Assembly: GCF_004138165.1 (NCBI RefSeq)
Contig: NZ_RYFF01000024.1
Coordinates: 1 to 64,000 of the forward strand
Length of the DNA stretch: 64,000 bases
DNA from: Candidatus Chloroploca sp. Khr17
GTDB lineage: Bacteria; Chloroflexota; Chloroflexia; Chloroflexales; Chloroflexaceae
Direction: 5' to 3'
Position numbers and translations under genes: made by a program. This document shows positions 35,178-37,137 of this stretch, piece by piece. The notes under the pieces are model-generated. The model saw only the letters and a list, made by a program, of their open reading frames with translations, made no database searches and was not told the DNA's origin. Numbering within the stretch: the first letter of the stretch is position 1; every line of letters starts with the position of its first letter.

Positions 35178-35224
35178 GCAACGCATAGGGATGGCGGGCA
35201 AAGCCCGCCATCCCTATGCGTTGC
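35178..35224. terminator. Perfect 22-bp hairpin, loop AAA
   Basis: Arms 35178-35199 and 35203-35224, directly after the DinB-like stop codon. Confidence 0.8.
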
Positions 35225-35257: not shown

Positions 35258-36562
35258 ATGCCTGACGACTCGCAGTTTCACTCGGCTCTGCGCAAGCTTG
35301 ATGAAGCCTTGCAGGCCCTTCCCGAGGAGCCTTCTGAGGCCGATCGCGTGAGGGTTCCGCTCACCGAGATGCTTACCCGTCTCGTCGTTGGCATCGTGCT
35401 GCTTGGCCTCGATGCCCTCGCAGCACGCTCGGCGACCTGGGAAAACGAGGCTGGCATTGTTCGCGATGCTTCTTCGCCCGATCCTGCTGCTGGTGAGCCG
35501 GGTTCGGCGCGTTTCCGCCAGGCGTTGATTGGCTGGATCTTTGAGAGCGAGCAGCGGCTGCGTCCACAGGGCAATCCCGTGATCTGGCTGCGTGCGGTGA
35601 TCACGTATCTGTTTGGGACGCTGTTCACGGTGCTACTCGAGTTGTTGCCCTTGCCGCGCCCCAGTTTTCGCCGCACCAAACCACCCCTCGCCGAGCCAAC
35701 TGATGAAGAGACCCGCCGCTGGATCAGTCGTGGCCGCGACGAGGAGCTACGGAGTCGTCGTCTGGCCGCAGTCGCCCTGGAAGATGGGGTCAATCAGGCC
35801 ATCATCTATCTCGCCCGTCGCCCTGCGGTGGCCCAGGCGCTTGGCGAAATTGTGCGCTCACCGGCGATGGACGATGCGGCGCGCCAGCTTGTCGCTGGCC
35901 CGGTTGTTGATGAGGCGATCAAGCGGGTCATCGCCAGCCCTGCCCTCGATGATGTGATCGTCCGCGTTGGCCAGAGCCCGGCGCTGGATCAGGTCATTAC
36001 GCAGGTGGCGCAGAGCCCGGCGCTCGATGCGGTGATGCTCCAGGTCGCCAGCAGCCCGGCGCTCGACCAGGTCATTACGCAGGTGGCGCAGAGCCCGGCG
36101 CTCGATGCGGTGATGCTGCAGGTCGCTGGGAGTCCAGCGCTCGATACCGTGATCGATCAGATTGCGCAGCGTCCTGCCCTTGAGCAAGCCGTCAGCCGCA
36201 TTGTGCATAGCCCGGTGATCGAAGAGGCGGTCAGCCATATTGTACGCACGCCGGCGATGGAGGATGCCGTCAAACATCTGGTTAGTACGCAGGCCATGAA
36301 TGAAGCGATTGACACCCTGGCCCAATCGCCGGCGCTCGTCTCGCTGGTCACGACGCAAGGAACCTCGGTTGTCACTGAGATTCTGGTGCAGGTGCGTTTG
36401 CAAGCGATCCGCGGCGACCAGGGGCTCGAAGGCTTTATGCGCCGCCTGTTCCGGCGGCGACCCCGTACGACCTTGCCCCATGAAGCGCGTGGCCTCCTGA
36501 TCGATCCCGAGGCTCAGCAAGCGCGGCGCCTACGCTCACGTTTCAAAGGAGGTGAGCAATGA
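35258..36562 (+). CDS. Membrane protein with tandem 13-residue SPALD repeats
   Basis: 434 residues. An N-terminal region with one hydrophobic helix (residues about 45-62) and another around 115-130 is followed by about eleven tandem 13-residue repeats (residues about 201-360) of the form SPALDQVITQVAQ, drifting to RPALEQAVSRIVH and TPAMEDAVKHLVS. The hydrophobic pattern is that of a helical solenoid. A basic end (RRLFRRRPR) closes the protein. From memory, similar SPxx repeats occur at the N-terminus of RDD proteins in Actinobacteria; here the RDD part is the next gene, joined by an ATGA overlap. It probably forms a complex with it at the membrane. Confidence 0.8.
   Translation: MPDDSQFHSALRKLDEALQALPEEPSEADRVRVPLTEMLTRLVVGIVLLGLDALAARSATWENEAGIVRDASSPDPAAGEPGSARFRQALIGWIFESEQRLRPQGNPVIWLRAVITYLFGTLFTVLLELLPLPRPSFRRTKPPLAEPTDEETRRWISRGRDEELRSRRLAAVALEDGVNQAIIYLARRPAVAQALGEIVRSPAMDDAARQLVAGPVVDEAIKRVIASPALDDVIVRVGQSPALDQVITQVAQSPALDAVMLQVASSPALDQVITQVAQSPALDAVMLQVAGSPALDTVIDQIAQRPALEQAVSRIVHSPVIEEAVSHIVRTPAMEDAVKHLVSTQAMNEAIDTLAQSPALVSLVTTQGTSVVTEILVQVRLQAIRGDQGLEGFMRRLFRRRPRTTLPHEARGLLIDPEAQQARRLRSRFKGGEQ
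35981..36136 (+). repeat. 78-base tandem duplication inside the SPALD gene
   Basis: Units 35981-36058 and 36059-36136 are nearly identical and each encodes two 13-residue repeats, pointing to recent copy-number change. Confidence 0.85.
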
Positions 36563-37137
36563 CGGCTCCACCCTTGGATCCGCCACCCGTCGTGAGCGAC
36601 CCCGAACCGGCGGTGTTGCAGTTTGTCGGCTATGCCGGCTTTGCTTCGCGCCTCGTTGCGATGGTGGTTGACCTGCTGATTGTTAGCATTACGTGGATCT
36701 TCTGGGGGTTCGCCCTTACCTTTTTGAGCCAAACCTCGGGGATCAATGGCTTGCTCGCCTTCGTAAACAGCTTTTTCAACTGGATCATACCGTACCAGAA
36801 TCTGCTCAGCATCTTGCTCGAAATCTCAACCTTGCTCCTGATCGCCCAGCTCTACTTTACCTTCTTCTACGGCTTTGGTGGTGCCACCATCGGCAAATAC
36901 CTGATGGGTTTGCAGGTTGTCCGGCGCAACGGCCAGCCGCTCTCGCTGGCGCGTGCCGCGCTGCGTACGCTGGCCTATCTGGTCTCAACCCCACTGATTT
37001 ATGCCGGTTTTATCAACATCCTCATTGACGACCGCCGCCGTGGGTGGCACGACCTGCTCGCCGGAACCGTGGTTGTCCATAGCTGGCGCGACTATCCTGA
37101 TGGACCCGAGTCGTTTGAGTTGGGCGAAGATGTATAG
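36559..37137 (+). CDS. RDD family membrane protein
   Basis: 192 residues. The RDD motif region is GYAGFASRLVAMVVDLLIV (R and D in the first helix) and DDRRRGWHDLLAGTVVV at the end. Three to four membrane helices, with GATIGKYLMGLQVV between them. Some RDD proteins act as sodium/proton antiporters, but the family is mixed. The ATG overlaps the stop of the SPALD-repeat gene, so the two are translated together. Confidence 0.88.
   Translation: MTAPPLDPPPVVSDPEPAVLQFVGYAGFASRLVAMVVDLLIVSITWIFWGFALTFLSQTSGINGLLAFVNSFFNWIIPYQNLLSILLEISTLLLIAQLYFTFFYGFGGATIGKYLMGLQVVRRNGQPLSLARAALRTLAYLVSTPLIYAGFINILIDDRRRGWHDLLAGTVVVHSWRDYPDGPESFELGEDV

Follow-up and report, generated by a model that had tools for sequence, protein, structure and literature searches.

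The repeat protein and the RDD-family membrane protein encoded by overlapping genes in Candidatus Chloroploca sp. Khr17 are strongly supported as obligate partners. Repeated fusion and splitting of the partner and the RDD domain is shown, as is turnover of the repeat array within the partner. The two genes rather probably specify a single membrane complex in which a cytosolic helical arm is docked on the RDD membrane protein by way of a conserved tail.

The gene pair and its RDD member

The window (the whole 64,000-nucleotide stretch of DNA analysed) contains the pair with the following features.

35258..36562, + strand: repeat protein (the RDD partner), 434 aa; conserved start, full-length alignment with 9 relatives
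35258..35818, + strand: partner N-core (residues 1-187), with long helices predicted
35819..36325, + strand: 13-residue repeat array of 13 uninterrupted units (consensus SPALDxVIxQVAx), each modelled as one helix
35975..36130, + strand: tandem 78-base units of two repeats each, 92.3% identical
36326..36478, + strand: conserved tail, a long helix ending in the arginine cluster RRLFRRRPR
36545..36555, + strand: Shine-Dalgarno sequence of the RDD gene, AAAGGAGGTGA, read from the sequence
36559..36562, + strand: ATGA start/stop overlap of the repeat gene and the RDD gene
36559..37137, + strand: RDD membrane protein of 192 aa; scores 80.6 bits with PF06271 (curated cut-off 24.1)

The limits that the preliminary description gave for the pair (35258-37137) are correct, and the ATGA overlap it reported is present. 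Alignment (MPDDSQF / MPGNEPF / MAGNQRF) shows the repeat protein to have its conserved start at the ATG of 35258, with another in-frame ATG ahead of it at 35216, and the Shine-Dalgarno sequence of the RDD gene, a strong one, lies within the 3′ end of the repeat-protein gene. The flanking genes are DinB_2, M20 peptidase and DUF389/Usp. Directly after the DinB_2 stop codon, the two 22-base arms of a perfect inverted repeat enclose an AAA loop (35178-35224); no T-run accompanies the repeat, the core of which has a single occurrence in the genome.

RDD proteins are defined by a conserved Arg at the start of TM1, an Asp within TM1 and an Asp following a His near the C-terminus (PMC5996927). The window protein shares these with the PF06271 family, the TM1 pair in GYAGFASR...VVD and the later HD aspartate in WHD, and the defining R and D columns are invariant in the RDD alignment (A4). 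Searches of PDB sequences with the protein and with its profile gave no match. The PADLOC model PD-T4-6 matches the RDD protein through the C-terminal part of the model (1.1e-6), which suggests that the defence protein PD-T4-6 contains an RDD-like domain.

A variable array between a conserved core and tail

The array occupies residues 188-356 of the partner, with one degenerate unit ahead of it and one half unit behind. Self-identity of the repeat protein is 0.488 at lag 13 and 0.453 at lag 26, against a maximum of 0.18 among 10,000 shuffles, so that the 13-residue repeats first described stand, though their count, put at 'eleven or so', does not. The 78-base duplication is also real. Its units (35975-36052 and 36053-36130) include an exact run of 50 bases, but 'fresh', as it had been called, needs qualifying: the same duplication is present in two sister species and so did not originate in the window genome alone. 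In one of these (L002) the two units are 98.7% identical to each other, whereas the corresponding units of the window genome and L002 are 91.0% and 82.1% identical. With copies more alike within a genome than when orthologous copies are compared, ongoing duplication or homogenisation is the better term, and the DNA units of the array look, from their sequences, homogenised within genomes. Comparison among relatives, which had been proposed at the outset, gave arrays of 6, 8, 13, 13 and 15 units; two sister species have 13 and 15, so that within the genus array length differs by 26 residues (78 bases).

The SPALD repeats were initially taken as the defining feature of the protein, which they are not. 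They are a lineage-specific expansion between the conserved N-core and tail, since other lineages have other arrays or nearly none. Most Chloroflexota partners have the same N-core and tail with the array small or absent, the N-core being kept in forms with and without it, and many are roughly 235-340 residues long (among the relatives and in an RDD-only alignment search of GTDB genomes). At the array position one locus (L080) has a 22-residue unit, QAGQYLTYLNEHPEQVEALVQK, and related spacers occur in two others (L078, L083). The tail is the partner segment common to the Chloroflexota and Actinomycetota forms and reads roughly LVQxQSxGLAxEVxEEVRxRxVSADxxxExxVRRLLRRxPRxxLP. Upstream of this same tail, many Actinomycetota forms have a 9-residue VDVDALVAR-type array. 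Such arrays are seen in L117, L119-L127, L129-L131, L133 and L134, some of them highly regular, with identity of 0.57-0.61 at lags 9 and 18 in L133. Arrays of SPxx 13-residue repeats are also found in Actinomycetota, in L113 (two genes) and in L115 and L118 (both fused). The actinobacterial fusions annotated 'RDD family protein' are like the window pair in having the same tail and RDD, and in some cases SPxx arrays, and unlike it in that many have the 9-residue array, a window-like N-core being detected in Actinomycetota in L116 only.

No Pfam or NCBIfam family reaches its curated cut-off with the partner, the best for the window protein being GerD at 18.2 bits against 29.5, and two short-form partners (L066, L036) have zero Pfam matches. 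Matches of the repeats to GerD, LmuA and similar families are weak and were set aside as composition effects.

Co-presence, adjacency and fusion

Evidence for the partnership comes from genome comparisons of several kinds. A profile of the tail (A5) finds 16 of 61 related genomes, spanning 9 genera, and the RDD profile (A4, at 150 bits or more) finds exactly the same 16, the two profiles being independent in that they were built from different genes or domains. If presence were independent, identical sets would arise with a chance of about 5e-15, a figure made too optimistic by the relatedness of the genomes. The remaining 45 mostly have just a generic RDD, at most about 57 bits, with an intermediate partial match of 96 bits in one (G059). 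In an RDD-only scan, made without regard to the partner, 24 of 39 RDD loci have the partner tail either immediately upstream or in one frame with the RDD; one further locus (L076) has an N-terminal fragment of the partner, and the other 14 are mostly RDDs of other phyla or of a different type. Conversely, a tail-only profile has matches in 22 of 346 Actinomycetota genomes, 20 of them fused to an RDD or directly adjoining an RDD gene. Of the remaining two, one is at a contig edge (L114) and the other (L132), a RelA-type protein, is a false positive. The pair is retained across two phyla rather than being confined to close relatives, and the functional link is stronger than the preliminary description had it; neither of the outcomes that it named as refuting the link (no fused forms, no conservation outside close relatives) was observed.

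Ordinary RDD proteins, in comparison, are without a dedicated partner, as illustrated by the second RDD of the same genome (C40, L029). Actinobacterial plasmids of Miltoncostaea, Rhodococcus and Streptomyces carry RDD genes beside which no partner was seen, while Nonomuraea has a divergent two-gene pair. Around 25 Chloroflexota and 20 Actinomycetota loci no conserved third gene is general. Two observations concern individual records. A record titled Candidatus Gracilibacteria (L084) and a genome assigned to the window's family (G018) have identical pairs, and the record is probably a mislabelled or mis-binned MAG. In genome G030 (L028 / L076) the partner of one RDD paralogue is fragmented over different frames, whether through a frameshift or an assembly error.

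Fusions of SPxx repeats to RDD domains in Actinobacteria, named in the preliminary description, are seen in L115 and L118, and the search for fused forms that it proposed found them in both phyla. Nine single-gene fusions were found, three in Chloroflexota (L071, L075, L068) and six in Actinomycetota (L115, L118, L121, L131, L133, L134). On a tree of the RDD domain, which comes from a quick search and has many weak branches and some long ones that are probably misplaced (L053, L029), parsimony requires at least 6 changes between the fused and split states, 2 of them forced by strongly supported branches. Partnered RDDs lie largely apart from partnerless ones on this tree, the latter being mostly together. 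Repeated fusion and splitting is a classical sign of physical partnership, and by this established reasoning the two proteins would be physical partners.

It might be countered that the repeat protein is a mere neighbour, its array reflecting neutral expansion and the overlap ordinary operon packing. Repeat expansions are common and potentially neutral, and array length is not conserved, but the identical presence among the 61 genomes, the nine fusions and the retention across two phyla all contradict this reading, which is close to untenable.

Predicted structure, possible workings and known systems

Structure prediction of the repeat region, another of the checks proposed at the outset, gave, with modest confidence, a short helix for every repeat. 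The AlphaFold2 models of the window repeat protein (pLDDT 70, pTM 0.47) and of the fused L071 protein (pLDDT 77, pTM 0.48, with a low-confidence linker) agree in having an N-core of long helices, a short helix of mostly 10-12 residues for each repeat, and, in the tail, a helix some 40 residues long that reaches the arginine cluster. The fused model gives no confident prediction of contact between partner and RDD. With pLDDT near 40 for residues 252-292 of the window model, an arm or superhelix shape is not established. By Foldseek and VIA-align the model of the repeat protein resembles other helical structures only weakly (best Z 5.0), and the lack of a match does not show the fold to be new. 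As for sidedness, no signal peptide was seen in the repeat protein, the arginine cluster precedes the first membrane helix of the RDD in fused forms, and the RDD loop behind the second membrane helix is positively charged, which together, by the positive-inside rule, argue for a cytosolic location. Hydropathy of the N-core helices is about 0.7-1.5 in most short forms, and for two of them reaches 1.9-2.0 in the window clade, enough for membrane insertion; most short-form partners are therefore probably not integral in the membrane, and the N-core helices of the window clade are borderline.

In the complex proposed here, the RDD protein would be the membrane-embedded half and the repeat protein its dedicated subunit, probably on the cytosolic side. 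The arginine-ended tail helix would dock the repeat protein beside the first membrane helix of the RDD, and the N-core with its string of short helices would form an arm, which may bind a ligand, a partner protein or a lipid surface, whether in the cytosol or at the surface of the membrane, and through this binding scaffold or regulate the RDD protein. Recombination between near-identical 78-base units would lengthen or shorten the arm in two-helix (26-residue) steps, and lineages would have used repeat units of different kinds to build it in front of a shared docking tail.

Other workings for the pair are to be weighed against this one. Antiport has been shown for one RDD protein, the Na+(Li+,K+)/H+ antiporter of Halobacillus andaensis (PMC5996927), and the pair might be a cation/proton antiporter in which the RDD moves these ions and is tuned by the repeat protein. 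The antiport-essential HD aspartate (D154 in H. andaensis, after His) has its equivalent in the WHD of the window protein, but the position of D158, also essential there (HD plus 4), is glycine in the window protein (WHDLLAG) and variable across the subfamily. Moreover, the related SppI of Bacillus subtilis, an RDD protein that binds and inhibits the membrane protease SppA, has all six residues, yet its deletion or overexpression leaves salt and alkali resistance unchanged (PMC7568657), and an antiporter would seem unlikely. So too would a role for the pair in organising lipids or storage-lipid synthesis, with the repeats as amphipathic helices on the membrane surface in the manner of apolipoproteins. 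The hydrophobic residues at helix spacing, read from the repeats, would suit such a role, as would a wax-ester/acylglycerol-synthase-like gene directly downstream of the pair at seven loci (L036, L037, L073, L074, L081, L082, L087). However, the seven are one clade of one Chloroflexota lineage; the gene is absent beside the pair in the window and in other Chloroflexota loci, and a similar one is nearby in just 1 of 20 Actinomycetota regions.

A bolder reading arises from the RDD part of the fused L071 protein (L071:2990-4513, model residues 299-493), whose best match among solved structures is the membrane domain of PEX2/PEX10/PEX12. In peroxisomes these domains form the retrotranslocation channel. 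The match to 7t92_A has Z 8.3 (the next being 4.7) and rmsd 3.6 over 126 residues with a Foldseek E of 0.25, and Z values such as 8.3 can, by the aligner's own warning, be chance for helical bundles. Weak matches to Pfam Pex2_Pex12 occur in 5 of 8 members of A4 (an alignment in which close relatives of the window protein are numerous), in 1 of 24 others and in 0 of 10 reversed controls, the controls having been run because membrane proteins draw chance Pfam matches (Ammonium_transp, for example). A remote relation is possible on these matches. The full reading, with RDDs as bacterial relatives of the PEX2/PEX10/PEX12 membrane domains and this subfamily as a bacterial channel, or a device akin to a translocator, under the control of an exchangeable cytosolic repeat arm of variable length, is considered very unlikely.

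For the arm-and-RDD complex that we favour, SppI with SppA offers a parallel in that an RDD protein acts within a two-protein membrane complex, though here the complex is proposed and the partner is a helical-repeat protein, not a protease; no SppA-like gene is beside the window pair. The existence of fused actinobacterial proteins is not new, since public genomes already contain them and standard annotation would name them 'RDD family protein'. The two-part module, its exchangeable arrays and the co-presence of its members appear undescribed, neither partner nor module having been found in the family libraries searched or in about 5.4 million open papers.

RDD proteins are widespread in bacteria and almost unexplained, with one antiporter and one protease inhibitor reported. 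With its obligate partner, its natural fusions and an arm that varies in length, the subfamily offers a defined complex for testing, and the fused proteins could serve directly as constructs for structural studies. The family would also provide a case of membrane proteins in which the cytosolic arm was made anew from one kind of repeat or another, always before one and the same docking tail.
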